From: Cylicocyclus nassatus
Lineage: Eukaryota; Nematoda; Chromadorea; Rhabditida; Strongylidae
Length of the DNA: 64,000 bases
Assembly (NCBI GenBank): GCA_958299035.1
Contig: CATQJL010000223.1
Coordinates: forward strand, 80,679,322 to 80,743,321
Direction: 5' to 3'
A program made the translations under genes and the position numbers. A model generated the notes under the pieces. It had not been told where the DNA came from, did no database searches, and saw only the letters and a list, made by a program, of their open reading frames with translations. Below, piece by piece: positions 25,987-63,949 of the stretch; positions within the stretch are counted from its first letter, which is position 1, and each line of letters starts with the position of its first letter.

Positions 25987-26191
25987 CTCAGATAATCGCC
26001 GGGGGCAGACAGCCATGCGATTTTTGGGCGAGTGGCACTGGAAAAATAGTTAGCTGATTCCTTGCGGTCCGCTTGCAGAAATCTGGAAGAACATTGGCCA
26101 ATTTTTAGACGAATGCTCGGAGAACATTTGCGGTTTCTTATAGATTAATTGCGGCGCAGTGGGCGCATTATCGCGGGACTCTCCGCGAGAA

Positions 26192-28351
26192 TCTATATCT
26201 TGCTATAATATAATCTGGTAACTGCCAAAGCGATGCGACGGGGGTACTCTCCTCCCCATATGCTTTACTGTTGTGCTAATTGTTCTCTTACAGTGTTAAC
26301 AGCAAATTCGAGGGTAGTGTAGATTATATGTCATACAAAAACTAACTGCGGCACATGAACTAACAAGGATGTGCAGAGAAACGCTCCGCCTCGCCGAGAA
26401 AGTAATGGTGAACGCATGCACTCAATTAGGATTCATATGGTTTGCATGACAGCGACATAGTTGACGGCATTTGTACTTGGTTTCCAGACTGTATGCACTT
26501 TAAGCGCAACTTATAGAGCTTTCTCTGCATGGAAAGTGCAAATATGAGTAATGTCGGCAAATCGTCAAAGATCACCCCCTCAGTTCCAAAGGACATGAAA
26601 CAAGGGATCAAGTGCATGTCATGTACAAACCTCAAACAACAACGTTCGGGAAACATTGATTCCAGACTGCCAAGTTAGTGCAAATGTCTGGCCACCGTTG
26701 CTAATAACTTGGAAACTGCCGCTTTTGCTTCCTACCCTGTCTAATGCTTCCTACATAAAAATAATTTCCGAGAAGAAGTCATGATTTTGAAAGCATTATG
26801 TAGTTTAGTTGAAATAGGGTGATTAATCCAATAATTTTACGGGAATTCGCTGAAATTTCACTCTTGAGTGTTTTTACTTTGCGAAAATATTGCTTTTGCC
26901 TCTGGAAACAAAAAGCAGTTAGCCGCGTTTTGTTCGAAGAAAAGAACAGTCACTTGATGCGGCATTACAATTTGCTAAACTTCTAGGATTCAATGCTGAA
27001 TGTCACAAAAACCTGCTAGATACTTTTGGGTGCTTCTACCTTGTGAAAATATTGTTTTTGCCTCTAAAGGCAAGTGAGCAGAGGGAGCTCGGTATGCTGG
27101 AAGGACCCAAGAACTCCATGGAAACACTTGCCAGCTAGATTTTGATGTCAAATTTCACCGCAACTTGTTGAACATTCGTTTTTGGCTCTTCTACTTTGTG
27201 AAAATCCTACTCTGTAAAAAACAACAGAGCAGAGGGAGCAAGCCTTTAGGGAAGAAAAAGACTCAGTGAGCTTATGCGGTAGGACACTTTTGATATGATT
27301 CTTTAGGTTCAGCGGTGAATCTCACAAGCTGCTTGAGATCCGCGCCGCTTACTTCGCAGAAATCGTACTTTTGCTTCTAAAAGCAGAAGAAGCAAGGGGA
27401 GCTTGATCTTGGGGGAAGGAAGACCCAGAGGCTTCATGCGGCAGGACATTTTTGCTAGGCATGTCCAAGAATATGCTGTCCAAGAAAATGCTTTAAGCGA
27501 GCTCTGGTCTCGCTTTAAGAAATGACCGTTTCTTAGCGAGACAGATAAGGAGAGTATTGGACTGTGCATGATTGCGAAGGTCGATGTGTTTGCGGCCGTT
27601 GCACAGTTCCTGAGTGTCAGCCTGAGTTTTGAGTTGTATCAGCTGTTCTACATACTAGATGACTGCTGAGGTGGTCTCCATCTCTAGAAGCTGTGTTATC
27701 TGGGGTAGGGTGTTTGCAAGAAGAACAACATAGTTAATTTGGAATTCACCAAGTGTCTAAAGTTTCTTTGAGAGTATGATCTTGCTTCGACTACTACTTA
27801 CCGCCAGAGATAGAGAAAATGGAAACTTAGTCTCTTGCAATTCTTAGTTGCATGCAGACTTTATCAATGATCTGCTCCAACCCACTACTAGCGACCCCTA
27901 GGGTCGCTAGTATCTATAAAACTCAATCTTTGTAAGTGGGTTCGTTTGTTCTTCGTTATAAAAACGCCCGCCAATAAACCGATTAAGCTGCAACTTTGCA
28001 CACATATGTTCGACCCCGGAGGCGGTTTAGCGCTACTTTTTGCGGCGATTCGAAGGGCCATTCTATCGATTTATTGATTTTTGGCATAAGAATGAGTTCG
28101 TGACATCGGCTAACAACTCATTTCCACGATCTCGTGTCAATAGCAGTAGGGTTCATTCGATTTTCGCGGTAAGAATGGTGCGGTGATTCAAGACGAGTCT
28201 ACAGCGGGTGAGTTACTTTGATTTGAAACCCCTTGCAGCGCAGCATAACGGCTAGGTGAGAAGGGGAGGCGGGGAGAGGGGAGGGGAGGGAAGGGAGTGG
28301 AGTAGGATCAGCTGAAGCCGCGACCCGGGCTAGACCGGGAAAAGCAGCTAG
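26192..28351 (+). mobile_element. Helitron, 2160 bp, inserted in the SL element
   Basis: Starts TCTATATC after A and ends with hairpin CCCGG-gctaga-CCGGG, spacer and CTAG (28348-28351) before T. Comparison with the 62713 copy shows the host joined exactly at A|T with no duplication, the Helitron hallmark. No Rep/helicase frame seen. Contains internal Helitron-like termini near 27908-27914, suggesting two elements in tandem. Confidence 0.9.
27914..28351 (+). mobile_element. Possible second, nested or tandem Helitron
   Basis: TCTATAAAACTC after A (27913) has the AT-rich 5' end and 'ccgattaag..tttgcacacata' block typical of nematode non-autonomous Helitrons. It shares the 3' terminus at 28351. 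Just before it, a palindrome (ACTAGCGACCC/GGGTCGCTAGT, 27888-27912) ends in CTAG, like another Helitron 3' end. Confidence 0.5.
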
Positions 28352-28452
28352 TATGCAAAATCACTGAGGGTCGCACGGCCCTGTGAAGGAGACCGCACAG
28401 CCCTTAGGTAGCTTCCGCTAAAGAAGGTACCCCAAACTCGGGTAATTAAACC
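28352..28452 (-). ncRNA. SL1-like spliced-leader RNA gene, copy A, 3' end cut off by the Helitron
   Basis: The leader lies at 28452-28431 on the minus strand: it begins GGTTTAATTACCC, continues GAGTTTGGG, 20 of 22 matches to nematode SL1, and GT follows directly. Downstream are a stem (GGTACCTTC/GAAGCTACC, imperfect), a second stem, and GATTTTGCAT as a weak Sm-like site. The 3' hairpin lies on the other side of the Helitron (26191-26166). The SL RNA role is to donate its leader to mRNAs by trans-splicing; this copy should be dead. Confidence 0.65.
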
Positions 28453-28708
28453 ATCACAATCTGCGACATAGAGTCTCATCTTTGCTCAACGTATGCCCGA
28501 AACTATGTTAGAAGAGTCCGAGCGCTTGGTGAAGGTTCGGTCGTTGAAAGAAATTGTTTGCCAAGCGATGTGCAGAAAATGCTGTATTGAGATTATGCGA
28601 CAGTAAAGGAAGTACCGCCCTCTGAAGTTTGGCTACGCCCAAAATTCTGCTGACCGCCTGCAGAAAAGTGCAAGTTTGCGGTCCGCCTGCCCCCTGCGAT
28701 TATCTGAG

Positions 28709-30868: not shown

Positions 30869-30874
30869 AGCCTA

Positions 30875-31194: not shown

Positions 31195-31237
31195 TGTCCC
31201 CCCTGAACATAAGTGTCTTCCCGACACTTAGTAGGGT

Positions 31238-32279: not shown

Positions 32280-32323
<44 letters not shown>
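32280..32323. repeat. TA microsatellite, left arm
   Basis: About 21 TA units next to the MITE insertion; the right arm has about 16 (39780-39812). The 8-bp length difference agrees with the offset of flanking homologous positions. Confidence 0.9.
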
Positions 32324-32324
<1 letters not shown>

Positions 32325-33190: not shown

Positions 33191-33195
33191 TAATA

Positions 33196-33871
33196 CAGGG
33201 TGTCCCAAAAAAATGTGAACACTGTTTGATTGTTAGTAACTTCCTTGCTTTGGTGTCTTTCGCCGAGCTTGAGGCACCATTCTATAGAGCGGGGTTTAGC
33301 TTAGATCTACAGTATGGAGCGAACCGTCGATCGCTCTGTATTACTGTAGGATTACGGTAGGAACTTCGGCAAAGATTTTAGGCCACTGGAGGCCATATCT
33401 CCTCGGAACAGAACCAAACAAGCCAAAAACTTCTATACAGTGGTAATGGAAGCCGCTGAGTTCGAATATAAAATTTCCACTTTACTGTGATGCTTCTTTC
33501 CAAGGTTATCCCAGCTAAACCGTAATAATGAATTTCCAGCATTTGTCAGAAATGTGACTACACCGTCAAAAAAGCTAAAAACACACGTAAAAAGTTGTCT
33601 AATGGAATCATCGTGCGCGAAAACCCTAGTACAGGACTTTTCAGATTTTCTGAAAAAATTTTTGTCAAGTGGCATATTTCACAATAGATCCACATGCTAG
33701 AAGTTTATACCGTAATCCTACAATAACGAACAGAGACCGGTGATTTGCTCCACACTATAAATCTAAGTTGAACCTTGCTCTACAGAATGGTGCCTCAAGC
33801 TCGGCGAAAGACATGAAAGCAACGGAGTTATTAACGATCAAACAGTGTTCACATTTTTTTGGGACACCCTG
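33196..33871. mobile_element. Mariner-type MITE, 676 bp, only in the left arm
   Basis: Ends CAGGGTGTCCCAAAAAAATG and its inverse, flanked by TA (33194-33195, 33872-33873). The right arm shows the uninterrupted site near 38905-38912, giving exact borders. It inserted after palindrome formation. Related to 55931-57044. Confidence 0.95.
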
Positions 33872-33879
33872 TATATATC

Positions 33880-35154
33880 GGGCCAATGAAAAGATGCTTG
33901 TGACTGGCAATGTCGATATCACTGGATCTACCACCAGGGACCACGTCACCAAAGGTCTTCCCTTTTATGCCGCACTCGAACTCGTCTTCGCCTTGTATTC
34001 TTCCCGGGCACGTGTGGAAAAGACTCAATGCGGAATTATCCGAGAAGTCTGACGATGTTGCCCTGCAAAAAATAGCAATACTCTCATTGTTTGTAGGCGC
34101 TAACTTTTTCCTACTCCATCTTTTTGTTTTTGTTCAAATTTGTTTATCGCCTATTTCTCTCGGTACCTTTATCAGCATGTTATATTGGACTCTGATAGGC
34201 TCATCATTACTGTTTAATCGCGATAAAAGTGCTGATTTTCCACTTACTTTCAACACTCTAAAGAGACCATTCCATTCAATGCAGATTTTAGGGTATTCTC
34301 CCACGCTTTTTTCACGCGGCAGCTTAAAAACACTCTGTCACCTACCCATGGGTAATCCTTTCGCCCAACATTGAATCTTTTGTCGTAACTTTCCTTCATT
34401 TTAACTCTCATCTCTGAGTTATGCTCCTGCACTGACTTCTGAATCATCTCTAGGCTACCTAGGAGCTCATATTTATAATCTTCAAGATCTACATGGTTAA
34501 ATGAGATTTTTCTTGGGGAATTACTTTAGACGGGAATCTAGGATCGAATGCGTGTAGTATATAAAAGGGACTTTCACCTGTAGCTTTATGCGGAGATGAG
34601 TTATATGCAAAAACCACCATTGGTAGCTATCTATCCCATTCCGCGGGTACATCTGTCTTTTTCTTTAACATCCTAGTCAGTGTACCGATGACTCTTTCTG
34701 TGATACCATTCTCCCGTGGGTTATAACCCTTGGTCACGGACTGGTCTATACCCACAATATCACAGATTTCCGACAAGACATTGTTTACAAACTCCGGTCC
34801 TTGATAGGAGTGTATTGCTTTGGGCCAGCGGCAACCTCCGCATACCCATCTTTCAAAGAAGGTTCTTGCTACTGTTTCAGCTTTTTTGTCTGCAGTGGGG
34901 TACGCTCCCACAAATTTGGAGAAACGATCAATCACTACTAATGCGTACTTATTTCCCCTTTCTGTACATCCTAACTCCACCAAATCCATGCCTACCAGCT
35001 CAAACGGTGCGTTGGTCACAATTGGCTTGAGTGGAGGAGTGTTCTTTTCGTGGACTCTTGTCAAAAAGCGCTTTGTACAAGCTTTTGTCCACTTGCCTAG
35101 ATTTTCTCGCATTCCATTCCAGAAAGGTCTTTTCTCAGCTTTCTGTACAATTTC
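33880..35154 (-). pseudogene. Ty3-like integrase, inverted copy in the left arm
   Basis: Mirror of 37627-38900. The minus frame 35112-34627 holds the core (VGMDLVELG, HSYQGPEF, ENGITERVIGT). The second catalytic Asp is Tyr, as in the other arm. A Gly/Arg versus Ser difference (CTERGN/CTESGN) is among the few arm differences. A fragment of the C-terminal domain lies at 34447-34250. Confidence 0.9.
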
Positions 35155-35205
35155 GTCGGCAAGAAGCTGTTTGTCGGCAAGAAGCTACTGGTCCCGGCAA
35201 AAGCG

Positions 35206-35987
35206 ATGAACATGGAAGTAGAAGCTCTCATCGATACTGATTCAGAAACATCCATAGCGCCATTGAATCTTTTCAAAAAGGCCGATGCAGAGGGCGTTGA
35301 TCTGGACTCCATTGTAGAAAGAGTTCCAGGAACGAGAGAAATTACAATACATGATGCTTCTGATAATAGAATGGAGATTTTGGACGCGATCAGAATGCCG
35401 ATGGAAGTCTTTGGTAAGACCGAGAAGATTGCTCTGTACGTGAACAGATCCTTGAAGGACATCTTCATACTGGGAACAAACGTGTTGAGCAAATTTGGCC
35501 TCAGGGTGATGCGTAATGATATCAATGGCGACCTGCTCATAGATGCCAAGGATGAATCACAAGCATGCCCAGCTATAGTAAAGCAGCGGACGTATATACC
35601 ACCAGGAGCAAGCAAAGTGGTAACGGTATCGTACATGCAAGGAAGCCCAGCATGCATGTTCTGCTCAAATCGGAAAAGATACCAGATGGAGTGTGCGAAC
35701 AGTCAGCAGAAGGAGAGACAAGAATACCCGTTACAAATAAAAGTAGCGAACCGATGGTGCTGCAGAAAGGGCAAGCTATCGGAGAGTTTGAAAAAGGTGA
35801 CAGGGTCGACAGCAAGTGGCTTGAACCAACTGCGGATGTATTGGATCTTCAAAATAAAGCTAGTAAGACGGAGAAGCAGAGAATGCAAGAAGTAATGAAA
35901 GCACTTCCAAGAAGCGACAAGCAGCGAAAACCTTTGCTGCATCTTGTTAAGGAGTACTCAGATGTGTTCGCTGTGAACGACTCTTAA
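35206..35987 (+). pseudogene. Ty3-like protease and linker
   Basis: The frame from 35206 has an aspartic protease active-site segment ALIDTDSETS; the family consensus is DTGSET, so Gly is replaced by Asp at a key position. ILGTNVLSKFGL follows as the second protease motif. The frame shifts near 35640 to a linker (QKGQAIGEFEKGDRV, HLVKEYSDVFAVNDS) that ends just before RT. The N-terminal side was removed by the inversion. Inactive as it stands. Confidence 0.75.
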
Positions 35988-35999
35988 TTAACCCAAACA

Positions 36000-36615
36000 G
36001 ACCTGGTTGCGCACAACATCGACACGGGGAATCATCCGCCAATTAAGCAGAAGACGAGACCTGTGCCCCTAGGAGCACGTCAAGAATTCAAACAGATTAT
36101 CAAGAATCTGGAAGAAAGAGGAGTAGTACGCAGAAGCCGATCTGATTGGGCTTCGCCAGTGGTCTTAGTGAGAAAGAAAGATGGAACGCTAAGACTTTGC
36201 GTAGACTACAGGGAACTGAACAAAGTGACCAAGCACGATTCCTACCCCTTGCCTTCCATCGATCTGATACTACAGAGTCTGAGTGGGAAAAAGTATTTCT
36301 CAACCCTAGATATGATATCAGGATATTGGCAGATCCGCTTGTCTGAAGAGGCAAAAAGGAAAAGTGCCTTTACCACCGGTAAAGGCCTTTTCGAGTTTGA
36401 AGTTTTGCCGTTTGGATTGACAACCAGCCCTGCTGAATTTCAGCGAATAATGGATATGGTATTGAAGGGCTTGGAGTGAAAGACAAGCAGGTCTTGTACA
36501 TAGACGACATCTTGATTGCTACGGATTCGTTGGAAAGGCACTATGTCGTCCTCGAGCTTGTTCTGAAAGCTTTGAAGAAAGTGATCTTAAGCTCAAGCCG
36601 CAGAAATGCGAACTT
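36000..36615 (+). pseudogene. Ty3-like reverse transcriptase, one frameshift
   Basis: LEERGVVRRSRSDWASPVV, LRLCVDYRELNKVT, motif A FSTLDMISGYWQI, motif B FEVLPFGLTTSPAEFQ, then a frameshift near 36475 and motif C LYIDDILIA (YIDD at 36497-36508). All catalytic Asp residues are present. The single shift just before YIDD breaks the protein. Ty3/gypsy assignment is firm from motif order and wording. Confidence 0.9.
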
Positions 36616-37200
36616 TTGAAGCCGCAAGTGGTTTTCCTCGGTCATATAATTGATGGCAAAGGCGTGCATACCGGTCCGGATAAGGTTAAGAAGCTTGTCG
36701 AGTACCCTGCTCCAACGAAGTTGAAGGAACTTCGTACTTTTCTTGGTATGGCCGCATACTATCGGAAATTCATATTGAGCTTCTCAAAGATAGCTAAACC
36801 GTTGTACACACTCACAAGTCCCAAGAATCCTTGGAAGTGGTCGCATGAAGAAGAAGAGGCATTCGACGTCTTGAAGCAACAGCTGACTACAGCACCAGTG
36901 TTAGCCCAGCCAGATGTGAATGCAGCAAAAGAAGGGACTCGTCCGTTTATAATCTATACTGATGCCTGCGTGGAAGGTTTGGGTGCAGTTTTATGTCAGG
37001 AGAGCACTGATAAGATGTTGCATCCCGTATACTTTGCTTCAAGAGGGCTGACTAAAGCCGAAGGTACCACATAACAGATCTGGAAGCCTTAGCCCTAGTT
37101 TTTGCTTTGAAGAAGTTTCATTTCTTTGTCTATGGAATGAAGACTATACTCAAAACAGACCATTGCCTCTTACAAGTCTGTTCAAAAGGACAGCAATTTT
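36616..37200 (+). pseudogene. Ty3-like RT connection and RNase H
   Basis: VVFLGHIIDGKGVHTGPDKV, LGMAAYYRKFI and SKIAKPLYTL are typical of Ty3 RT ends; FIIYTDACVEGLGAVL is the RNase H start (catalytic Asp), continuing in another frame with LEALALVFALKKF (Glu) and KTDHCLL (Asp). Frame break near 37073. Confidence 0.85.
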
Positions 37201-37559
37201 TGCAAGAGTGCTAAGATGAGCACTAGAAGTACAGAAGTACAATCTAAAGATACAGTATGTCAAGGGAAGCACAAACGCGGTGGCAGACGCACTATCGCGC
37301 ACACTTGTTCCGGTAGATACAGCATGTTGCGAAGAGAATGCCACAGTCGTGTGCACTGTACAAGCCGACACAGAATGGCTGGAAGAGTTGAAAAGGACAA
37401 AGACTATACAAAGGTCTTTGAAGGACTGGAACAAGTTAGCATGGAGGAAGAAATCCAACTAGCAAGATGAGGAAGAAAACTCTATGTAGCAGGTTTCCCT
37501 TATAAGCGAAGGACTGCTCATGATGATGGACGGGGACAAGCCGCTAAAAGTCGTTCCAA

Positions 37560-38660
37560 AGTCCAAGAGCAAAGAGTTGTTTGACGAAACACATTCAAGT
37601 GCATTAGCAGGACACCTGAGTGCAAAGAAATTGTACAGAAAGCTGAGAAAAGACCTTTCTGGAATGGAATGCGAGAAAATCTAGGCAAGTGGACAAAAGC
37701 TTGTACAAAGCGCTTTTTGACAAGAGTCCACGAAAAGAACACTCCTCCACTCAAGCCAATTGTGACCAACGCACCGTTTGAGCTGGTAGGCATGGATTTG
37801 GTGGAGTTAGGATGTACAGAAAGCGGAAATAAGTACGCATTAGTAGTGATTGATCGTTTCTCCAAATTTGTGGGAGCGTACCCCACTGCAGACAAAAAAG
37901 CTGAAACAGTAGCAAGAACCTTCTTTGAAAGATGGGTATGCGGAGGTTGCCGCTGGCCCAAAGCAATACACTCCTATCAAGGACCGGAGTTTGTAAACAA
38001 TGTCTTGTCGGAAATCTGTGATATTGTGGGTATAGACCAGTCCGTGACCAAGGGTTATAACCCACGGGAGAATGGTATCACAGAAAGAGTCATCGGTACA
38101 CTGACTAGGATGTTAAAGAAAAAGACAGATGTACCCGCGGAATGGGATAGATAGCTACCAATGGTGGTTTTTGCATATAACTCATCTCCGCATAAAGCTA
38201 CAGGTGAAAGTCCCTTTTATATACTACACGCATTCGATCCTAGATTCCCGTCTAAAGTAATTCCCCAAGAAAAATCTCATTTAACCATGTAGATCTTGAA
38301 GATTATAAATATGAGCTCCTAGGTAGCCTAGAGATGATTCAGAAGTCAGTGCAGGAGCATAACTCAGAGATGAGAGTTAAAATGAAGGAAAGTTACGACA
38401 AAAGATTCAATGTTGGGCGAAAGGATTACCCATGGGTAGGTGACAGAGTGTTTTTAAGCTGCCGCGTGAAAAAAGCGTGGGAGAATACCCTAAAATCTGC
38501 ATTGAATGGAATGGTCTCTTTAGAGTGTTGGAAGTAAGTGGAAAATCAGCACTTTTATCGCGATTAAACAGTAATGATGAGCCTATCAGAGTCCAATATG
38601 ACATGCTGATAAAGGTACCGAGAGAAATAGGCGATAAACAAATTTGAACAAAAACAAAAA
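37560..38660 (+). pseudogene. Ty3-like integrase
   Basis: Zinc-binding start (HSSALAGHLSAKKLYRKL, then KACTKRF, where the second Cys of CxxC is Arg), core 37669-38154 with VGMDLVELG, HSYQGPEF (consensus SDQGPEF: the second catalytic Asp is Tyr) and ENGITERVIGT, and a C-terminal domain (VGDRVFL, RVKKAWE at 38334-38537, then ALLSRLNSNDEPIRVQYDML in another frame). It is inactive and both arms share the Asp-to-Tyr change. Confidence 0.9.
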
Positions 38661-38912
38661 GATGGAGTAGGAAAAAGTTAGCGCCTACAAACAATGAGAG
38701 TATTGCTATTTTTTGCAGGGCAACATCGTCAGACTTCTCGGATAATTCCGCATTGAGTCTTTTCCACACGTGCCCGGGAAGAATACAAGGCGAAGACGAG
38801 TTCGAGTGCGGCATAAAAGGGAAGACCTTTGGTGACGTGGTCCCTGGTGGTAGATCCAGTGATATCGACATTGCCAGTCACAAGCATCTTTTCATTGGCC
38901 CGATATATATTA

Positions 38913-39778
38913 GGGTGATCCAAAAGTAATGGGGCACATTGATTTTGTTAAACATTTTTCAAGATTTTTTTCTGATTAGCTATGAACGACCAGCATTCTG
39001 AACGTTTTTGTATAAAGTGACCTGCGCAGGTTATCCTGACAGCATCTTGCAGCATCTCATCGACATTCCTTTGAGCGGCGCTTTAAAGAAGTCAGACAGA
39101 CTTTTTTGAACGCCATCCGAATTTATGCTGCTGCACCTGGAAGTCCCTTGACATATGGCACACCATTCGAAAGAGCTTTCCAAGCTCTTTCTAATGAACA
39201 TTTGACTATTCAAAAACTGCCCATTATTTCGTACAAAATAGGCACTTTATTCGAAAAAGTACTGTGTATGGCGCAGATTTTCAGACTAAAATCCATGTTT
39301 TGACCTACAATTTTGTGAAAATGAGAGTAGTCGAAGTAGTTTGCATATATATGAATAGAGCGTAAAAAGCACTACTAGAAAACAACTGTTAAGATTGAGT
39401 TTATTTGATTACCTTGATGAAAGATTAAGTAATATGTCTCCTGATACCCAATGCTATAGCTTCTGTTCTAAAGCCTTGGGACCACCGAGCTATCGTGGAT
39501 TTGGTGGCAGTCCCCTCACCCATTGCCGCGCAGATATCTTTGGTAGACACACTTGTTCTACTGCTGCGCTGCTGCTCAAAGTTCAAAATTACTAGAAGTG
39601 ATAAGCTAAAATTTCAAGCGCTTATAAAAATAACGCCCTGTGACCGTGCCCAACTATAGACCTCGATCAGAAGGCTTTGTTATGTACTAACATCTGCCAA
39701 AACTTGGACTTCCAATTAGCTTTTCTGTTTGAAAAACCTGCACTTATTCTTTAGGTGCCCCATTACTTTTGGATCACC

Positions 39779-39779
<1 letters not shown>
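38913..39779. mobile_element. Mariner-type MITE, 867 bp, right-arm copy
   Basis: Same length and ends as 32324-33190, in mirror orientation, TA-flanked. It interrupts the retroelement between the integrase tail and the downstream reading region. Confidence 0.9.
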
Positions 39780-39813
<34 letters not shown>

Positions 39814-39815
<2 letters not shown>

Positions 39816-40857
39816 ATCTTCGAACAAGAACGAGATGCCGACAAAAGGAATTTTTTGATGAGGGACAAGAACTACATTTTTGTAACAACCTCGAGATCCC
39901 AGAAGATCCCAGAGCCTACGTCTACTTCAAACGCCACTGTCTACATACAATGCGGGATTTGATGCACCACGATGGCAGCAGTTTATTAATGCGACACGAT
40001 GGCAACTCGGGATTAAAGATCGACCAAGTAAACTCTTTGATGAACGAAGGTGATCGATTTGCAGTAACAAATTCGTGGACAGATGTCAGAGTCGAAAAGA
40101 AGAAGGAATAGGCTATATTCTTGTTACCCCAAGGATTCACATGGTTCAAGCACGCAGTGCAGTTTGGGGAAAACACTACGCCATTCATCTATAAGAATCT
40201 GTCGGATATCTGCAAGAAGCTGCGGGAAGTCCAAAAGCCCCACAACATAATTTTTATCAGATCTACGTGCAATGAAGTGCCATCTGAAGGAGAGTGGATG
40301 AGGCTCAGCATGGCCTTCACCAACGCAGCACGAGGAGGCTCCAAGATTGTCGCGGTTGCACCACCACGAGGTGAAGCTAACTGAGAAGCGATGCGATTGA
40401 AAGTGATTGACTTGATGAACACAGTGAGAGAAGCCGTGTACGCCACTAGAGCGAACGTCGTAACGAAGATACCGCAAGCCCCCTCTGTGACCGAGCCAGC
40501 ACTTGCTGTAGGAACACGGTTGGAAAAATGAATGGACAGGATATCTACGCACGATGATTTGGGATTTCCTGAGCACGCTGCTGGATTACGTAAAAGGGGA
40601 CATGCCCTTAGAGCCGCTCACACAGGTACATGAGCAGAAGGAGAACAGACATCGTGAAGCGGACCGTCACCAATATGGGAATCGTTCACGTGATGGATAT
40701 GGATATCGATTACATGATCGAAGTTCAACTGGAAGAAGAGGACACGCACCAAACGGACCAGGCAGAAAACTACGAGGACTGGAGCCAGGACGCGGTCACA
40801 GTATCGACATCTAGGTTGGGGACACAGACGAGGAAGCGACCGGGGATATCACTATAG
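39814..40857 (+). pseudogene. Ty3-like element: region after integrase with Arg/Gly-rich end
   Basis: Consecutive frames: 39814-40111 (FKRHCLHTMRDLMHHD), 40121-40384 (GFTWFKHAVQFGENTTPFIYKNLSDI), then an Arg-rich segment near 40620-40814 (NRSRDGYGYRLHDRSSTGRRG). The basic, Arg/Gly-rich end resembles a nucleic-acid-binding tail such as a Gag nucleocapsid, but its place after integrase is not where Gag belongs. It ends about 40 bp before the polypurine tract. Function unknown; it could be a permuted gag or an accessory ORF. Confidence 0.5.
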
Positions 40858-40900
40858 ACCCTACTAAGTGTCGGGAAGACACTTATGTTCAGGGGGGACA

Positions 40901-41211
40901 TGTAGCTAAGCCAAGGCCATGCTTACTTAGGTTAGGATAAGGTTAGATTGAAGTAGTTACATATTTTAGGTTTTTCTAGCAGTCTAGTTTTTTTTATTGA
41001 GTGTATAAGACCATAGGGCGTAGCTGTGAGGCATACGCTGCACCATATCTCAGGTTGCCGGCCTCAGGCTGTTGATTGTGATCTGATCTTTGTTTTTCCT
41101 TTGCTCATTCTTTGCAGCCTTTCATTCCTCTTGTTATTGTTCTCATATTTCTGTTGTATTCAGCCTCTTCGGTTTGTCAATTTTGATAAACCATTTTTGT
41201 TTCAAACGGTT
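40901..41211 (+). repeat. Ty3-like 3' LTR (start defined)
   Basis: A polypurine tract (AGGGGGGACA, 40891-40900) directly precedes TGTAGCTAAGCC. No matching 5' LTR is in the window. The right border is set only by the end of arm homology. Confidence 0.6.
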
Positions 41212-43246
41212 GTGCTGGGTCAGTGGAACCTGCGGATCTTTCTGCCCGTTAATCCTTATTTGTACTCCTGCTCACCACAAGGAGTAATTCGCCTTGTCTC
41301 TGAACGTCTGTACAAAGTCTTCATTCGCCCCCGTCTCGAATGCTGCTCCCAAGTTTGGAATCCCGCGCGGAAAAAAGACATTTGCAAAATAAAAAAGTGC
41401 AGAAAACCTTGACGCGTCTCTTGTGCAGGCAACTCTGTTCTGGCAACATTATACCAGTTATAATGTTCAACTCAGAAAGACCAAATTGCATAGTCTTTTC
41501 TTTCGTCGCATTCTCTTAAATTTAGGGTTTTGTTTTCAAGTTTTAAACGCTAGAAATCGCAGTCTGCTCGCATATCAAATATTCATGCGAGCTAGTAAAA
41601 GATCAGGAGGATTGAACTTGCATTATGCCAAAGTCAAAAAGTACAGTCTTGCAAAAATGCACAGTACCTTATCCTGAAGGTGGGCTTTCAGCGGTTGCAC
41701 ATGGGTGGAATGTGCTCTTAGACTGCACTCCTCCAGAGCTGAGTAGCTGATACACAGTTTGCATCTCTAAGCTTTCTAGAATGGTTTTAATTTGCCGTTC
41801 ATCATTACCACTTCATTCTCTTCTAGGCTTTACTAAACTGGTGTTAACTAGATGTCATTTGTCAATTTTTGGAGCAGAGTCTTGATGTTCTGCAGTTGTA
41901 CTCAATATTGTAGTCGGTTCTAGTCTTTGACTGTTACTACCATAGGCATCACTAACAACTGACCAGCCCGGCTAATCGTCAGGAGCTTTATCACATCTTG
42001 TTACCTCAACAAAGCCTAGTTTCCCTTTTAGGGCACCCAGATTTTGTCCATATAATGAAATGCCTTCTGAATTAGGTTGGTAGGTGTTTACTTCCACTCT
42101 AAATCGGAATCTTGCTATCCTCTAAAATAAGTCTTTTGTGGAGTCAGTCAGCAAACCTTACCGGCGGTCTCGTTGACACCCAAAAATGGCTCTTTTTCAC
42201 TTCCAGAGTATGCAAGATTTTCGAGATCGTTTTTTTTTGACTAAGTGTTCGTTCGTTCAACATTACAAGCTGAGTCTAAAGCTTCGTGTTTTGTTTTCCC
42301 ATTCGTTTCTTCTTTTACCTTCTCTTGAGGCTAAGGGCGGCTGGTTTCATTTGTTTGGACCTTCTTTCAATTTTTTTTACATTCTGGTGCATCTCGAGTG
42401 TATTTACAAAATGAAAAATTAATAAACTTTGAGCAGAGCGTTTCTTGTTTGCAAAAATGTGACTTTCTGCTTCAAAGAAATCTTGAAATTTTCGGAAAGT
42501 GTGTGATAGCTAATAATTCAGCTTTTTGGTGAAGTGAATTAGTAAATTGGCCTTTGCTGTAAAAATTTTTTCTTAGGAATTTAAGAACAAAAAACTTTGA
42601 TGTCTAAATAGGAATAATGGTGTTTTTATGGTCTACTAGGTCTTAAAGAAAGTTTCCTGGCACTGGCAAAAAATCTTTTCAAATCGCTGTAGCTTCAAGC
42701 ACATTGATCCGTTCTCAGAGCAACAAACTTCTTTGCAAAGGCAGTTTTATCCACAACAAATATTTGTCTTGTTGGCTTTTCAGCGCCTCATTGCGGTCCA
42801 CCGTGCCCAAAAGAAAAGAAAGTCGATGCGAAAAATAGAATAGCCTATTTGTGCGGGATTATCTCAGGCAGGATGAGAGCAGAAGAGCCCAGATGCTGTA
42901 GTTATATAGAGGTCTCCTGAGGGTACTAAGGGACCATTCATGTTCTTCAAGGACCACCTGCAAAAAATTCTCTTCAAAAAGTATGAAAAATTAACCATTT
43001 TTGCCTCCAAAACTTCATCATTTTAAGTGACTTCAAAGTCTTCTAGTTTTTCACAGAACGGGCCAAATCTTTGATTACTGGATACATTGTTGTGGTAACG
43101 CCTTGCACATCTTTTATACCCGTTATCCAGGCCAGGCAATTTCCGGAGAAGCGGCGACGTCACAAGAGCTGCGGTCAAAGGCAAGTTCATCGGCTTGTAA
43201 TTTTTAAGCGCAAATCGCGAAACGCTAATACACTGTGGGTTAGAAG
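41212..43246. other. Right-arm-only DNA, ancestral flank of the Ty3-like element
   Basis: Absent from the left arm. Contains a CR1-like RT fragment at its start; the rest (41700-43246) is AT-rich with no recognised gene. Because the hAT-like end at 43247 and its target duplication are preserved here, the left arm lost this DNA rather than the right arm gaining it. Confidence 0.7.
41275..41680 (+). pseudogene. CR1/jockey-type reverse transcriptase, C-terminal fragment
   Basis: LYKVFIRPRLECCSQVWNP, then KKDICKIKKCRKP, stop, and in the next frame a Leu/Arg-rich end (LRKTKLHSLFFRRILLNL) typical of the RT thumb of CR1-group non-LTR elements. 5' truncated and frameshifted. Confidence 0.65.
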
Positions 43247-44396
43247 CAGAGTCAAGCGTGGGGTGTGGCATGCCACACCTGAGGGTTGTATTGAGGAATC
43301 AGGGAGGGTGGTCGTTATCAAGGCGTCCGCTGTTCGCATAACATGATGTTCGTTGACAATGTCAAATAGGCCCGTCATGCAAAATACTAGCATTGATGTT
43401 TGAGCATAAGGGCATCGTTTTGTGCAAGTAGAAACCCCTGTGGCCTAAGTTTCAGCGAATTTGAGGTTTCCATACACAGGACCACCTAAGTGAGATGGTC
43501 GCTTTCAAACATGTTACTTTGTTTCAAAGGTAAGCTATCGTTCATTCGTTGACCGTACGGACTGCCGACCGCGTGGCGACTGCGACGCGTGCCTTCTAAA
43601 CTTGCGAAAAAGTGATAAGTTGGACCGTGGCTTAAGATGAGAAGAATTCTTTGCTTCTTCTCTACATTATAAAGATGAGAAGAATCCTCTGTTTTCTTCC
43701 TATTCATCTTTTCTACGAAAACATCATGCACGCGCAGCGGTCGCCGCGCGGTCAGCAGTCGTTACGGTCAACGAATAAACGATAACTACTTCTCTCTGCG
43801 CTTAATACAAAGAACTACTTTCTTTCTCACATTAGGAATCCTACTTCAAATGACCTCCAAATCAAGGAATTAGCAAGTCAAAATCTCGCTTGTCACAAGT
43901 TGCATTTTCATTATCTCAGGCTAGAGAAGACCAATCACGCTCAAATCACTCTAATTTAGATTACGAGGTTTGGGCTATTGAACATATACATTCTTGTCGC
44001 ATTTCCTTGCGATTCACGTAGTAGCGCAGACATCGCATGTTACTCCCAATATTTTCGCAGTATTTTACCAGTATTTTACATTTGCATAGGTAAGGAAAAC
44101 GATTATGTCTTACTACTGAAGAAATGTTTTCAAATGAAATTTCTGCTATATGAAGAAGAAGGTTAATCAGTAACAGCGATATGAAAAACGCAGCTATTTG
44201 ATCTGTTCGAAGGTACTTAATTGGGTGCGGCACCATCCCTAAAAAGCTGTGGCAGCCACAGCTTTTTAGGGGTAGTGCCACACCCCATTAACTATATTGA
44301 AAAAAAAAACATTTTTAGCCAACGCTATTTATGTGAATCGATAGACTAGACCTCGTTGATTTTATAGGAGTAATTTGAGCCTGATTCGTCTTCTTA
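43247..44396. mobile_element. hAT-like foldback element, right copy
   Basis: Starts CAGAGTCAAGCGTGGGGTG, an intact version of the end found at 3617. It continues through a hairpin (44225-44288) to the Harbinger MITE at 44397. The 8 bases before it (GTTAGAAG) are the near-exact inverse of those before 29108. Interrupted by the 245-bp MITE. Confidence 0.75.
43538..43782. mobile_element. 245-bp TA-flanked MITE, only in the right arm
   Basis: Ends TCGTTCATTCGTTGACCGTA and inverse ending GAATAAACGA, flanked by TA (43536-43537, 43783-43784). The left arm has the empty site (30777 region), giving exact borders. Terminal repeats extend about 55 bp. It inserted after the palindrome formed. Confidence 0.95.
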
Positions 44397-44777
44397 CAAG
44401 GAAAGGATACTTAGTCGAAAGCGCCAATCCAGATGAGACATATATCACCTTAAAGCGCTTGAAACGCTGATTCCAAATCTGCATTTTTTAGCTGCGGAGC
44501 TGTTTTGTAGAGAGAGTTATGAGGGGTGTTTCCTCTGGGGTTGAGGCGCCCTCCACTATTTCTCCCCCTACCTATAAGCATTGTAGAGGAGTACCAACTG
44601 GTGGCAACTGACCTAGCAGTAAGTGACATGCTTGCTAAGGAGGGTGTCAAGGTCTTAGTCCTCTTCGCATGCAACTTTGTCTCAGTTTTTGCAAAATTGA
44701 GCTTTCAAATGGCTTTGAAGCTCTAAAGCTTGAAATTTGTGATGATATTGATGCTATAGAAGTGTTAAAAAACCAAA
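44397..44777. mobile_element. Harbinger-like MITE truncated at palindrome boundary
   Basis: Mirror of 29787-30167. Homology with the left arm stops at 44777, in the middle of the element, marking the outer breakpoint of the inverted duplication. Confidence 0.85.
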
Positions 44778-45726: not shown

Positions 45727-47500
45727 GATAATCCTTTTTAGACGCAGGCCTATAGACTGTCGTGTCTGCTAGATGTAGCTCAGCGATTTTCTTGTCTAAG
45801 GACTGCGGCATCACAACAAATTCGCCCTTGTCGCTTACAGCATTCGGATTGAGTGTTTTTCGACAGATTCACATAACTCTTTGAACCCTTTCCATGCGCA
45901 TTGTGTCAAATTAGTCTTGCGGTCGTGTGCGAACCTTTTCAAGACTTTATGGGTTTCCAGCGAAAGAACACGGAATCTGCTATCAGCATCTAGGGTAGGT
46001 TCGGCTTCTCTATAGAAAGATCGAGGGAACGACACCATTGGTAAGGAATTACTAGTAACTTGCGTTGTCATGTGAGAGTCGCTTTTGCATCTAACTCGAC
46101 GTCGTAATGAATCACGTAAGCGGTACAAACTTCCCACCACCTTGCGATAAACTGAGGGACCGATGTTTTGTACTGGAGAAAATGAGGGACCGAGACTGAG
46201 AAATTTCAGTGCGCACGAGGATAATTGAGCGTTGCCTACCACAGTGACTTTGTTGGCTTTCACTACATCCTGAGCTAAACTTTCAAGCTTGGGAGGCGTA
46301 GGTCTGCTGTTCAAGGCATGTTGATGGTTCTCAGACTGCGCGCCCGTGAGTCGGTCGTACTTGTTATGCAGTTTAGATTTAGCACTAGAACGCATCGAGT
46401 CGCATATCTTCCGCGATCCGTCCTCAATCCTCATCCAAGTCACGTCTGGCAGAAGACGTTTACACGCTAATTCTTTCGCATTACATTTCAAAATGCAACT
46501 ATACAATACATGTTCCTTCTCTTTGATGATAATGCCCAGCATCGACCGGTAGATATTTCGTACTCTCGGATCATTATCAGACACTCCACAGGTTAGTTCA
46601 ATCTTCTTTTTTGATATGAATGCCGGTATAGTGTTTTCTTCTTGCACCTTCGAAGAAAAGTGGACAGATTGTCGTAACGCTGCAATCTTCTGTCGAAGCG
46701 AATTTGCTTCGCGCACCAGCGAGAGCATGTGTGGCGGTACAGCACCGGCAGTGCCGCTTTTCAAAGCTGCGTTTTAAACGCAATAAAGCGCCGGAAGTGC
46801 CGCATTGTTATATCTGCTTTCATATTTATCGCACGAAAATCTTGTTTACATAGTTTTCATCAGTGTACCTTAAGCTATCCGCCAATGTGTTTAAAATTTA
46901 AAATCTCAATTTTTAGTCAATTACATGTTCTAAATCTTTTTGGTCCCCTTTTTTGCGCTGATAAGCTGATAACAATCTTCAAAATAGTCGCACAAAATTC
47001 TGACAACATACTTGAAATCAGCTCTTCGCAAGCTATCCAATGATGTGTTTAAAAACCTAAAAATCTCAAATTTTTTGTTTCCGATTTTATTGGTCCTTCA
47101 TAGTGGTATTATTGGCTAGGCTGGCCCCGGCCCCTGGCTGCCGTGACCTATCAATATCGATCATTGTTAAAGATTCATTTTTTGTATTATGGAAGCAAGT
47201 ATTTACACGTCGACTTCGGAGTCCAAAGGTGCGCTATGTAGTGGAACATAAAAATGGAAGCCATGAACTTCAATTTTTTGAAATTCGTTGAAAATGCAAA
47301 ATTACATCTAATTGATTTAAAAGTCCCAAGACACAGTAACAGTATTTTCCGATTTTTACTTTGATACTGAATCGCCAGTACAACTTTGACTTTTCAATCT
47401 GAAATTTTTGAATTTTTTAGAATAAAATTCAAACATCTCAGCAGTTCCAAGATACAGTAACGAGCAAATATTGAGGTCAGAGTGGTATCCGAGTTTCCAT
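45727..47500. repeat. Left arm of the PLE palindrome
   Basis: Pairs with about 48560-50345. The outer part (to about 47110) is near-identical between arms; the inner part (47110-47500 against 48600-48930) is clearly diverged. The spacer holds SL element copy B. Confidence 0.85.
45835..46764 (-). pseudogene. PLE N-terminal region, inverted copy
   Basis: 309 codons matching 49278-50205 almost completely (LVREANSLRQ, GPSFSPVQNIGPSVYRK, SFYREAEPTLDADSRFRVLS). It stops where the palindrome's PLE similarity ends and RT is absent from this side. Confidence 0.85.
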
Positions 47501-47778
47501 CTCGTTTCTGAAGATTATAGCCAGTCGGGCCCTGAATAAGTTCAAAACTTTAGAAATTCTTAGGAGAACATTTTATCATTAAATTACAGTTTCATAGCCA
47601 ACGTTATCCCATTACACAGTCCCTCTTCCCCAAGAACAAAAATCTTCTATGTCTTGAGAAATTATTAGCGTCTTGGGCAATTAGGTTCGCATCAATTAGA
47701 TTATTCAACTTTAGTGTTGTCTTTCACTAGAGAGCTCAGGTGCGCCTGCACCCACACTTGTGACCTGCTTCGCACCTT

Positions 47779-48367
47779 CTCAGATAATCGCCGGGGGCAG
47801 GCGGTCCGCAAACTCGCGCTTTTCTGCAAGCGGTCAGCAGAATTTTGTGGCGTGGCCAAACCTTCAGCGGGCGGCACTTCCTTTACGGTCGCATATTCTG
47901 CCAGCGGGCAGCAAAACACCATTTTTTGCAAGCGCTCGGCAAAAAAATTCTTTCAGCGAGCGCTGGTCAAACTTTCAGCAAGCGCTCGGACTCTTTTTAT
48001 GCAGTTTCGGGCGTACGCCGAGAAAAGATGAAACTCTAGGTGGCAGAGGTACCATCGATGGTTTTATTACCCAAGTTTGGGGTACTTTCTATCAGCGGAA
48101 AGTACCTGGGGGTTGCGCGGTCCTCCACAAAGGACCGTGCGGCCCTCGAAATTTTTGCATATTCTCGCGGAAAGTCCGCGAGAATGCGGCCACTGCGCCG
48201 CAGCTAATCCATAAAGGAACCGCGACTGTTCTTCAAGCATTCGTCTTTAATTCCGCCAACTTTCTTCCAAATTTCTGCAAGCGGGCCGCAAAAAATCAAC
48301 AAACTATTTTTCCGGTGCCCGCCTGCCCATAAATCGCATGGCCGCTTGCCCCCGGCGGTTATCTGAG
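47779..48367 (+). mobile_element. SL-RNA-bearing TIR element, copy B, 589 bp
   Basis: Ends CTCAGATAATCGCCGGGGG and CCCCCGGCGGTTATCTGAG, with TT on both sides (47777-47778, 48368-48369). It is GC-rich (unlike its AT-rich surroundings) and carries an SL1-like RNA gene at 48060. No transposase, so it would be moved in trans. It lies at the centre of the PLE palindrome. Confidence 0.9.
48060..48190 (+). ncRNA. SL1-like spliced-leader RNA gene, copy B
   Basis: Leader 48060-48081: starts GGTTTTATTACCC and ends AAGTTTGGG, 20 of 22 matches to nematode SL1. The donor GT follows at 48082. Then come stem GGTACTTTC/GAAAGTACC (48081-48089 with 48098-48106), a second stem CGGTCCT/AGGACCG (48118-48136), an Sm-like site AAATTTTTG (48149-48157), and a perfect 11-bp hairpin with loop AAG (48161-48185). 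This order (leader, stems, Sm site, 3' hairpin) is that of SL snRNAs, which donate the 22-nt leader to mRNA 5' ends. Size about 125-130 nt compared with about 100-110 in known nematodes. Expression is not shown. Confidence 0.75.
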
Positions 48368-48559
48368 TTGTTACGAACGCGCAAGAGCTCAGCCTTGCGT
48401 GTGAGCTCATGATCCATTGGATAGAAAAAATAGAGCTTTCCATTGATATTTCGATTTTCGGACCGTCTCCTAAGACAAACCTTTCCTTGCTACAAGGCAA
48501 ATGAACTGAAGTCCTACATTAGCTAAATAATATGAACAACATCATGAATTGGAGTTTGG

Positions 48560-50345
48560 GTTTCCAAAAATCAGAAATTATGATTTTTGCTACTGAATTT
48601 CACTATAGGTAGGGGGAATTATCGGTTTATAATTCCAAATTGGAAATGCAAGAAGCTGGCAATTTCTATCTCAAAGCAGAAAAGGAAAATCATTATATTT
48701 CACAGTGATTTGGAATTTTTGAATCAATAAGAGTAATTTTTCAATTTCAACGAACTTCACAAATTAAAGTTTATGATCCCAAATTTCAAATTCCGGTATG
48801 CACCGCACTTCTGGTTGTTGAAGTGTCGACATGTAATACTACTTCCATATTACAATACTAAAATGAATCTATTAACAAAAATCGATCTTGATAGGTCACG
48901 GCAACCAGGGGTCGGGGCCAGCCTAGCTAATAATACCACTATGAAGGACCAATAAAATCGGAAACAAAAAATTTGAGATTTTTAGGTTTTTAAACACATC
49001 ATTGGATAGCTTGCGAAGAGCTGATTTCAAGTATGTTGTCAGAATTTTGTGCGACTATTTTGAAGATCGTTATCAGCTTATCAGCGCAAAAAAGGGGACC
49101 AAAAAGATTTAGAACATGTAATTGACTAAAAATTGAGATTTTGAATTTTAAACACATTGGCGGATAGCTTAAGGTACACTGATGAAAACTATGTAAACAA
49201 GATTTTCGTGCGATAAATATGAAAGCAGATATAACAATGCGGCACTTCCGGCGCTTTATTGCGTTTAAAACGCAGCTTTGAAAAGTGGCACTGCCGGTGC
49301 TGTACCGCCACACATGCTCTCGCTGGTGCGCGAAGCAAATTCGCTTCGACAGAACATTGTAGCGTTACGACAATCTGTCCACTTTTCTTCGAAGGTGCAA
49401 GAAGAAAACACTATACCGGCATTCATATCAAAAAAGAAGATTGGACTAACCTGTGGAGTGTCTGATAATGATCCGAGAGTACGAAATATCTACCGGTCGA
49501 TGCTGGGCATTATCATCAAAGAGAAGGAACATGTATTGTATAGTTGCATTTTGAAATGTAATGCGAAAGAATTAGCGTGTAAACGTCTTCTGCCAGACGT
49601 GACTTGGATGAGGATTGAGGACGGATCGCGGAAGATATGCGACTCGATGCGTTCTAGTGCTAAATCTAAACTGCATAACAAGTACGACCGACTCACGGGC
49701 GCGCAGTCTGAGAACCATCAACATGCCTTGAACAGCAGACCTACGCCTCCCAAGCTTGAAAGTTTAGCTCAGGATGTAGTGAAAGCCAACAAAGTCACTG
49801 TGGTAGGCAACGCTCAATTATCCTCGTGCGCACTGAAATTTCTCAGTCTCGGTCCCTCATTTTCTCCAGTACAAAACATCGGTCCCTCAGTTTATCGCAA
49901 GGTGGTGGGAAGTTTGTACCGCTTACGTGATTCATTACGACGTCGAGTTAGATGCAAAAGCGACTCTCACATGACAACGCAAGTTACTAGTAATTCCTTA
50001 CCAATGGTGTCGTTCCCTCGATCTTTCTATAGAGAAGCCGAACCTACCCTAGATGCTGATAGCAGATTCCGTGTTCTTTCGCTGGAAACCCATAAAGTCT
50101 TGAAAAGGTTCGCACACGACCGCAAGACTAATTTGACACAATGCGCATGGAAAGGGTTCAAAGAGTTATGTGAATCTGTCGAAAAACACTCAATCCGAAT
50201 ATCTGTAAGCGACAAAGGGGACAAAGCGGCAATTTGTTGTGATGCCGCAGTCCTTGAACAAAGAAATCGCTGAGCTACATCTAGCAGACATGGCAGTCTA
50301 TAGGCCTGTCTAAGGAATAGGGAAAAAGGAAGGATTATCAGAATT
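48560..50345. repeat. Right arm of the PLE palindrome
   Basis: Mirror of 45727-47500. The outer part includes the PLE N-terminus and the 165-bp-type leader sequence; the inner part is an older, diverged inverted repeat. The right copy has a few small insertions near 50230 and 50320. Confidence 0.85.
49278..50273 (+). pseudogene. PLE N-terminal region
   Basis: 331 codons. Begins MKSGTAGAVPPHMLSLVREA, contains CGVSDNDPRVRNIYRSM, GPSFSPVQNIGPSVYRK and an RT-proximal ISVSDKG motif, after which the frame slips. In intact PLEs this runs directly into RT. The Met at 49278 lies in leader-type repeat DNA and need not be the true start. Confidence 0.75.
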
Positions 50346-50349
50346 AATA

Positions 50350-51257
50350 TAGAAAACTAAGCGACATTTGGACTAATGTGGCTAGATGCGCTGGTCTAGA
50401 TGAACGATTTGTAAGTAGGTTAAAGTTAGACACTCCAAATTGTCCAGTTTTCTATCATCTGATAAAGACGCACAAAATCGCGTCGCAAGATTTACATTCT
50501 ATGTCGCCCGAAGTCTTTAACATCCGACCCATAATTAGCTGTATTGGAGGACCGACAGATCGTATTTCGTGGTTTCTAAATAAAATCGTGAGCCAGCTCT
50601 TGACAAAAGTCCCGGCACACTTATCTAACACTCAGCAATTCCTAGAGCTATTGCACAACACGAAGCTTGAACCTAGTGTTTTCATGGAGTCCTTCGATGT
50701 AACTTCCTTGTACACTAACGTTCACAACGATGATGCATTACAAGCTCTCTCGGAAATGTTAGATAAGCATATAACAACCATAAGTACCTTTGAACTGAGT
50801 AAAACGCAAGCACTGACCCTCACACGAGCATGCTTGAGTTGTAACATCTTTAAATGGTCTGGAAGATACTTCTACCAGACCCGAGGACTCGCAATGGGCC
50901 AGCGCTTAGCGCCAGTCCTTGCTGTGTGCTTTATGAGTAGAATTGAGGAGCCAGTGCTTGCGCGTATGCCACTGATATATGTCGTTACATCGATGACTGC
51001 TGCGTAATAACGTCTACTCAGTCCGAAATGGATGAGTGTTTCAAGTTGCTAAACCAGCAGTCCGAGTACGTCAAGCTCACTCGAAAAACCGCACGAAACG
51101 AATGGCTTCCTTACCTTAACACTCAGATTAATTTTTTCGGTGGTGTTCTCCATGTTAAATGGTACCGTAAAGGAAGCTGCAAGAACATCTTAGTCCATGC
51201 CAAATCGGCTCACCCTACAGAGATGAAAAAAGCGGTTAATCATAATATGATGAAGAC
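50350..51257 (+). pseudogene. PLE reverse transcriptase
   Basis: NCPVFYHLIKTHK, IRPIISCIGGPTDRISWFLN, motif A FDVTSLYTNV, motif B GLAMGQRLAPVLAV, motif C CRYIDDC (YIDD 50986-50997, after a frameshift near 50980), then WLPYLNTQINF and WYRKGSCKNIL. The Penelope hallmark is the absence of any LTR-type RNase H. Cut at 51257 by an inserted element. Confidence 0.9.
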
Positions 51258-62712: not shown

Positions 62713-63300
62713 CTCAGATAACCGCCGGGGGCAGGCGGCCATGCGAATTTTGAGCAAGCGCGCACCGGAAAAATAGTTCGTTGATTTTTTGCGGCCCGCT
62801 TGCAGAAATTTGGAAGAAAGTTGGCGAAATTAAAGACGAAAGCTTGAAGAACAATCGCGGTTTCTTTATGGATTAGCTGCGGCGCAGTGGCCGCATTCTC
62901 GCGGACTTTCCGCGAGAATATGCAAAAATTTCGAGGGCCGCACGGTCCTTTGTGGAGGACCGCTCAACCCTCAGGTACTTTCCGCTGAGAGAAAGTACCT
63001 CAAACTTGAGTAACTAAACCAACGGTGACCCTCTGCCACACAGAGTCTTGCCTGCGCTCGACGTACGCCCGAAAATGCCTAAAAAGAGTCCGAGCGCTTG
63101 CTGAAAATTTGGCCAGCGCTCGCTGAAAGAAATTATTTGCGGAGCGCTTGCAGGAAATTTTGTATTGCTGCCCGCTGGCAGATTATGCGACAGTAAAGGA
63201 AGTACCGCTCTCTGAAGGTTTGGCCACGCCCCAAAATTCTGCTGACCGCCTGCAGAAAAGCGCGAGTTTGCGGACCGCCTGCCCCCGGCGATTATCTGAG
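62713..63300 (-). mobile_element. SL-RNA-bearing TIR element, copy C, 588 bp
   Basis: Ends CTCAGATAACCGCCGGGGG and CCCCCGGCGATTATCTGAG with TA on both sides (62711-62712, 63301-63302). Removing it and one TA restores the BEL integrase reading through the conserved NTRPL segment. This is direct evidence of transposition into a coding element. About 28-bp terminal repeats; no ORF for a transposase. Confidence 0.95.
62890..63020 (-). ncRNA. SL1-like spliced-leader RNA gene, copy C
   Basis: Leader 63020-62999 on the minus strand: GGTTTAGTTACTC then AAGTTTGAG, 20 of 22 matches to SL1, with differences at other positions than copies A and B. GT follows. Stems GGTACTTTC/GAAAGTACC and CGGTCCT/AGGACCG, Sm-like AAATTTTTG (62931-62923) and a perfect 11-bp 3' hairpin are preserved. 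Architecture as in copy B. Confidence 0.75.
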
Positions 63301-63949
63301 TAGAGGCCTCGTATTGAGTAAAGCTTCAATCTCAACAAGAGTAGTTGACATTTCTTCAAATGTGGGTGTCGATCCTTCCAAAGTCTTGTAGAGCGCGTAT
63401 TTAATTGATCTAATCAGGCGCTCATAAAATCCTCCTTGCCATGGTGCGAATGGAGTGATGTGCTTCCACTCGATTTCGTGATCGCTAATCTCTCTTGCGA
63501 CTGTTGTCTCGTGGTGCAAGTTTTTGGTGCCTGTTAAAATCTCCTCTCCCAAGAGAAATGTGGGAGCATTATCACTTGTGATAGACTTCGGGACTCCCCT
63601 TCTCCCGAAAAATCGTCGGAGCATGTTTAGGAAGGCTATGGTTGAAAGATCCGTCACTACCCGTCACTACATCTAGATAGACAAGTCTAGTTACCGTGCA
63701 AGTGATAATGGCTCCGTAGCATTTACTTGTGTTGTCTTCGTTGCCTTTTATTGTCAGCGGTCCAAAGTAGTCTAACCCGACGTGCTGAAATGGACTCGTC
63801 TGCTGTACCCTTACTTGTGGCAAGTCACTTTGATTAGGGTACTTGTATGGTCGACTGTTGAAGCGTTGGCATTCTACACACCGTCTGATGAAGCGGGTAA
63901 CTTGTGCTCGTAATTTTGGTATCCAAAACTTTTGACGAACAAGTGCCAT
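63292..63949 (-). pseudogene. BEL integrase, zinc-binding and catalytic core
   Basis: FWIPKLRAQVTRFIRRCVEC (CxxC of the zinc finger), HVGLDYFGPL (first Asp), SDNAPTFLLGEEI (second Asp), PWQGGFYERLIRSIK (catalytic Glu), EALLNTRPLL. The DDE residues are intact. The frame is broken by a 10-bp tandem duplication (CCGTCACTAC twice, 63651-63670). It then ends at the SL element. Confidence 0.9.

Follow-up and report, generated by a model that had tools for sequence, protein, structure and literature searches.

The nematode Cylicocyclus nassatus, a horse cyathostomin, carries a mobile family of short DNA elements with terminal inverted repeats (TIRs), the interior of which holds a module laid out like a spliced-leader (SL) RNA gene of the SL1 type. 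SL RNA genes make a short leader that is joined to the front of many worm mRNAs; they occur in several arrangements, and their leaders diversify between lineages. The TIR ends, target duplications, leader retention and host-like module together suggest that a non-autonomous, MITE-like TIR transposon captured an SL1-type RNA gene and amplified it, the gene being mainly a passenger, a reading to which we assign a probability of roughly 0.75.

Three elements, designated E1, E2 and E3, were located in the window, that is, the whole stretch of 64,000 nucleotides analysed (Table 1). The end motif CTCAGATAAYCGCC, which occurred six times in the window at no more than 3 mismatches (chance expectation 0.00), bounds all three; each possesses TIRs of 26 bp, and a 2-bp target duplication was observed in two of them, no such duplication being present at the flanks of E3. 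Elements of about 590 bp with the same ends had been described in the initial annotation, which fits E1 and E2, whereas E3 has been enlarged by an insert.

Table 1. Positions of the elements, their SL RNA-like parts and the interrupted integrase frame, in window coordinates
Feature	Position	Strand	Remarks
Element E1	47779..48367	+	589 bp; flanks TT/TT; from TIR pattern and length
Left TIR of E1, 26-bp	47779..47804	+	24/26 identical to right end
Right TIR of E1, 26-bp	48342..48367	-	
SL1-like leader of E1, B type, GGTTTTATTACCCAAGTTTGGG	48060..48081	+	2 mismatches to SL1
GT splice-donor dinucleotide of E1	48082..48083	+	
Stem I of E1	48080..48107	+	donor in 5' arm; from fold
Stem II of E1	48108..48147	+	from fold
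Sm-like site of E1, AAATTTTTG	48149..48157	+	
Hairpin III of E1	48161..48185	+	perfect 11-bp stem; from sequence and fold
Element E2	62713..63300	-	588 bp; flanks TA/TA; sits in integrase frame
SL1-like leader of E2, GGTTTAGTTACTCAAGTTTGAG	62999..63020	-	A type with one further change
SL RNA-like region of E2, 131-nt	62890..63020	-	leader, donor, stems I/II, Sm-like site, hairpin III
Integrase frame broken by E2	63292..63657	-	PF13683, E 0.0004, under curated cut-off
Element E3	25987..28708	-	2722 bp; old copy; flanks TG/GA; insert in hairpin III
SL1-like leader of E3, GGTTTAATTACCCGAGTTTGGG	28431..28452	-	2 mismatches to SL1
Insert dividing E3	26193..28351	-	about 2.2 kb (~2.16 kb); borders approximate

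The frame interrupted by E2 returned 11 matches, hookworms and strongyles among them, the best at 57-64% and several named integrase, and it reads on across the empty E2 site after one TA is discounted; we take it to be of the BEL/Pao type. Two further kinds of sequence were noticed in the window. Nested inverted duplications (29787-44777 and 45842-50200), with arms of about 0.9-1.3 kb that are 99-100% complementary and lie around 37 kb and on either side of E1, may be recent palindromes or assembly artefacts. Fragments at 18520-19305, 45835-46764 and 50378-51007 were read as Penelope-like elements; one GIY-YIG and one reverse-transcriptase match were obtained, both below the Pfam cut-off, the third frame had no Pfam match, and the frame at 45835-46764 matched two proteins of Ancylostoma ceylanicum and one of Cylicocyclus nassatus.

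In the genome searched (514.7 Mb), exact TIR ends were found 2896 times (1437 + 1459), enough for about 1450 elements, and the reversed control gave none. Five 10-kb stretches at chosen positions contained a single old element fragment, in one of the five, and the copy number is therefore that given by the TIR count only. Of 37 full-length copies retrieved with E2, itself included, 29 had identical 2-bp flanks, the majority target being the near-palindromic CACCTA/TAGTTG; among 28 elements selected solely by their ends, 26 had 2-bp target duplications. Most elements measured 578-589 bp. Eight of 30 young copies differed from their own consensus by only 0-4 substitutions, indicating recent movement. 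Copies lie on six large contigs; in addition, the element is spanned, with different flanks, by two ENA open frames located on contigs of 720 and 505 bp. Neither hallmark of retrotransposition, a tail or LTRs, was found in the element, which has TIRs and 2-bp duplications instead. No transposase was seen in it, and the one 4.3-kb end pair inspected as a possible autonomous partner contained no ORF longer than 127 aa; mobilisation would be by a transposase located elsewhere. The TIR pattern, SL1 followed by GT, and a pattern for the intron of the element RNA, which is recognisable by GTACTTTCT..AAATTTTTG, each had no match in a viral contig collection. Three matches of the TIR pattern in a collection of genome contigs, all in bacterial records, were taken as chance.

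The leaders of E1, E2 and E3 each share 20 of 22 bases with SL1, a degree of match that did not occur in 100 shuffles, and each is directly followed by GT; both observations had been made in the initial annotation and were reproduced at the same places. Its further remark that the mismatches differ was correct as to the two per leader, but these largely reflect subfamily differences that recur in other copies rather than random decay. Downstream of the leader, all three elements have two stems and an Sm-like site. The SL-snRNA layout proposed earlier, including hairpin III, is whole in E1 and E2, but in E3 hairpin III is split by the insert. The Sm-like site of E3 aligned poorly (5/9 identical), yet reads GATTTTG. 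Folding of the 131-nt RNA region gave z scores of -8.0 in E1 and -6.6 (-6.56) in E2, and of -0.4 in E3, where the scanned stretch runs into the insert. When windows were slid along the whole copies E1 and E2, the sense-strand fold peaked at the RNA region (-8.6 and -8.1), with a weaker antisense peak at the same region (-5.8 and -6.6, respectively). With the insert omitted from the alignment, a by-eye tally indicated that 40 of the 46 pairs of the E1 fold can form in E3 and that, of 11 pairs with changes, 6 are disrupted.

Leader variation was surveyed in a sample consisting of the first 100 ends among the matches listed, all on one contig (C1), which yielded 28 paired-end elements and 44 single ends, 40 of which were kept (two overlapping neighbours and the last two were omitted). 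Sixty-seven of these 68 end-drawn loci matched the element, some of the single-end stretches containing only part of one. A leader with up to 4 mismatches followed by GT was present in 47 of the 68. In 32 the set was complete: the leader had at most 2 mismatches and was followed by GT, an Sm-like site was present, and the donor lay in a stem. Two leaders predominated: the A leader, GGTTTAATTACTCAAGTTTGAG, identical to SL1 at 21 of 22 bases and present in 20 exact copies with GT, and the B leader, identical at 20 of 22 and present in 13. Exact SL1 was absent among the sampled element leaders. One of the ENA frames, P0015, is compatible equally with the A leader and with exact SL1, because the difference between them is synonymous there. 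E1 is probably a mosaic of the two types, since its leader and about 80 bases before it are of B type and the remainder is nearer to A type (1/109 differences in the RNA intron).

The genome contains 470 matches to exact SL1 followed by GT, and the control gave none. The 100 such places listed include at least two runs spaced about 680 bp on C1, which were taken for ordinary host SL1 RNA genes; one 680-bp tandem array of host SL1 RNA genes spans C1:30138576-30172831 (L054-L063), and scanning of two tandem-array loci (L054 and L058) revealed no 5S RNA. A tandem SL1 RNA of the host scored 37.5 bits against the Rfam model RF00198, the gathering score of which is 75. As the host gene itself falls short, failure of the element to reach that score is not counter-evidence. 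The relation to SL RNA that a covariance search was expected to reveal was recovered in part: RF00198 aligned E2 end to end and in register, but at 19.8 bits, and OxyS and mir-512, which matched the E2 region on its opposite strand, had better E-values. E1 scored 15.5 bits with a shifted register, and of 20 other copies scanned together one was matched at E<=10 (L079, 20.8 bits). Over the whole window, no Rfam family was matched at gathering thresholds and no SL family at E<=10. These low RF00198 scores (15.5-20.8 bits) were counted against the preferred reading.

The alignment of an A-type element RNA with a tandem SL1 RNA of the host scored 87, whereas 300 base-by-base shuffles of the element intron averaged 55.2 (sd 5.4) and never reached 87. 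Among the first 10 intron bases, 7-9 were identical to those of the host in six element sequences, versus 3-7 in a comparison set of 20 SL1-bearing loci outside the element, in which GT was fixed by the search. Similarity of the intron beyond that of shuffles is fair evidence, if not proof, that the module descends from an SL1-type gene, and its source would be a host SL1 RNA gene.

Capture of such a gene is shared with a second reading, which we consider possible but rather doubtful, namely that the copies function as mobile SL RNA genes whose transcripts bind Sm proteins and donate A or B leaders to mRNAs, with transposition spreading variants and dosage. A DNA transposon family would then spread working SL RNA genes, each insertion founding a new one and subfamilies having their own leader, a proposition that we hold equally tentatively. 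The complete anatomy in nearly half of the end-drawn loci and the two common leader haplotypes accord with it. Constraint on the leader was examined on a tree of 53 copies built without the leader, with 455 other windows for comparison. For leader plus GT, 50 changes were counted versus 59.1 expected in all copies, and 37 versus 47.9, 20 versus 39.0, 17 versus 27.0, 11 versus 17.5 and 5 versus 10.0 in five younger subsets, the age cuts having been picked after the data were seen. As changes fell below expectation in all six cuts, the leader may be under some constraint; however, 161 of the 455 windows changed no more than the leader in the full set, and 77, 11, 57, 92 and 74 did so in the five subsets, respectively. 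The rate of the leader thus appears to be about that of the element average. Conservation of the leader, proposed as a check in the initial annotation, was seen as retention, 26 of the 28 end-pair-drawn elements keeping a leader with at most 3 mismatches to SL1 (4 mismatches in one, leader absent in one); leader and donor were not clearly conserved above the element average.

The stems gave a similar picture. Of the stem changes on internal branches, 22 of 37 kept pairing, and on terminal branches 64 of 138 did so (p 0.20), so that no significant bias towards kept pairing was detected on the 53-copy tree, and some slid controls showed a stronger contrast than the real stems. Thirty-seven genomic matches to the A leader lacked a following G; the eight inspected were all copies of the element in which a donor base had changed, so that none of them was a processed retrocopy of an mRNA with the A leader, in a test that had no positive control. 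These three indirect tests, of leader rate, stem pairing and retrocopies, do not demonstrate use in trans-splicing. The transposable SL RNA gene of the initial annotation hence stands as an SL1-type module in a mobile TIR family, whereas working genes are so far unsupported.

Three further calculations were set aside. Depletion of E1-E2 differences in the RNA intron (3/109 versus 48/479, p 0.013) was dropped because E1 looks mosaic, its intron being of A type; a test for conservation of the leader inside each of the types A and B (p 0.0006 and 0.0008, respectively) was dropped as circular because the types are assigned by the leader itself; the tree tests above took the place of both; and one variant of the tree test, from which copies had been excluded partly by leader alignment, was left unused.

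SL1 followed by GT also occurred in sequences of other kinds. On C1, L034-L053 carry it inside LTR-like sequence, e.g. in L037/L038, L041/L042 and L046/L047; three LTR-like pairs 7.8-9.7 kb apart have 339-657 bp in common at 98.8-99.7% identity. In many of these loci SL1 is preceded by an AT-rich and frequently AATAAA-like sequence, and a stretch read as a primer-binding site lies downstream in several. They are putative LTR retrotransposons, the RNA of which may begin with SL1; SL1 has reportedly been noted in nematode LTRs. At positions 1411-2053 of L053, an SL1-bearing LTR-like stretch of ~643 bp interrupts the SL RNA-like gene of one TIR element copy and is bordered on both sides by positions 340-344 of the element. 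Another locus (L137, C1:31164900-31166800) has eight exact SL1+GT 24-mers on both strands, mostly about 65-90 bp apart, within a palindromic repeat rich in TGACGTCA, and belongs neither to the tandem SL1 array nor to the TIR element family described here.

Sharing of the SL1 sequence alone, as a transcription-start signal for the element with hairpins unrelated to those of SL RNA, is an improbable reading. SL1 may play the same part in the SL1-bearing LTR-like sequences of this genome. In Ascaris the SL sequence itself acts in SL RNA gene transcription. This reading would suit the finding that none of the 20 dispersed loci with exact SL1+GT that were inspected, out of the 470 matches, is a leader of the TIR element, the matching LTR-like pairs being among them; the Sm-like site, hairpin III and the intron similarity to the host SL1 gene argue against it. 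Derivation of the leader from a trans-spliced mRNA or retrocopy, rather than from an SL RNA gene, is very unlikely even though dispersed retroelement-type SL1 sequences occur in the genome, because mRNA copies lose the intron, whereas in the element GT adjoins the leader as in a gene and the intron resembles that of the host. Chance resemblance or assembly artefact, to which the near-perfect inverted duplications in the window might lend some colour, has next to no probability, being refuted for the leader by the shuffles and opposed by the copies on six large contigs and by the ENA frames from other contigs.

Capture and amplification by the transposon most likely proceeded as follows. An SL1-type RNA gene would have been taken into the interior of a short TIR element; a transposase supplied from elsewhere would move the element; and successive founder copies would have been amplified, leading to different leaders fixed in different subfamilies. 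The RNA gene would be mainly a passenger, intact copies perhaps being transcribed and occasionally spliced. In C. elegans, snRNA-type genes, including an SL2 RNA gene, have a PSE-type upstream motif (PMC2527325). Intact element copies could plausibly be transcribed from a promoter that they carry; conservation in the 80 bases before the leader does not exceed that of the element as a whole, at 2.59 changes per site versus an average of 2.37.

A cut-and-paste vehicle of this kind would let SL genes exit tandem arrays and diverge, and it would extend the known associations between small-RNA genes and mobile DNA to SL RNA genes and TIR elements. If working genes were spread, the leader repertoire of the worm would be partly written by a transposon. 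Caution is also advisable in leader-based searches for SL genes, which can collect many transposon copies. No description of an SL RNA gene within a DNA transposon was found in the open-licence literature by titles and abstract starts, and neither the three window leaders nor one further string occurred in that literature.

Among known systems, the nematode SL1 RNA genes (RF00198 and the 680-bp tandem genes of the host on C1) resemble the element module in leader, GT donor, downstream stems, Sm-like site and 3' hairpin. The module differs from them in that it sits in a dispersed TIR element, the donor is paired in stem I to intron rather than leader bases, its RNA is ~131 nt versus the 103-nt RF00198 model, and its leaders are variants, none of those sampled being exactly SL1. 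With MITE-type TIR transposons the element has in common short length, TIR boundaries, target duplications, high copy number and the lack of a visible transposase; unlike them, it carries a structured RNA gene module. Pristionchus has several SL1 variants (PMC7986045). SINEs, Cassandra (5S), Helenus and Ajax (PMC10886601, PMC10853983, PMC7215508) are retroelements derived from small-RNA genes and, like the element, place a cellular small-RNA gene in a multicopy mobile element; they transpose via RNA and contain Pol III sequences of tRNA or 5S type, whereas the element has TIRs, 2-bp duplications and SL RNA-type sequence. U1 and SL RNAs have been described as behaving like transposable elements (PMC4233971). 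Those families share with the element the dispersal of SL or snRNA sequences, but the passages concerned deal with retrotransposition and pseudogene families, without a TIR vehicle, whereas here the SL RNA-type sequence is dispersed within a TIR element.
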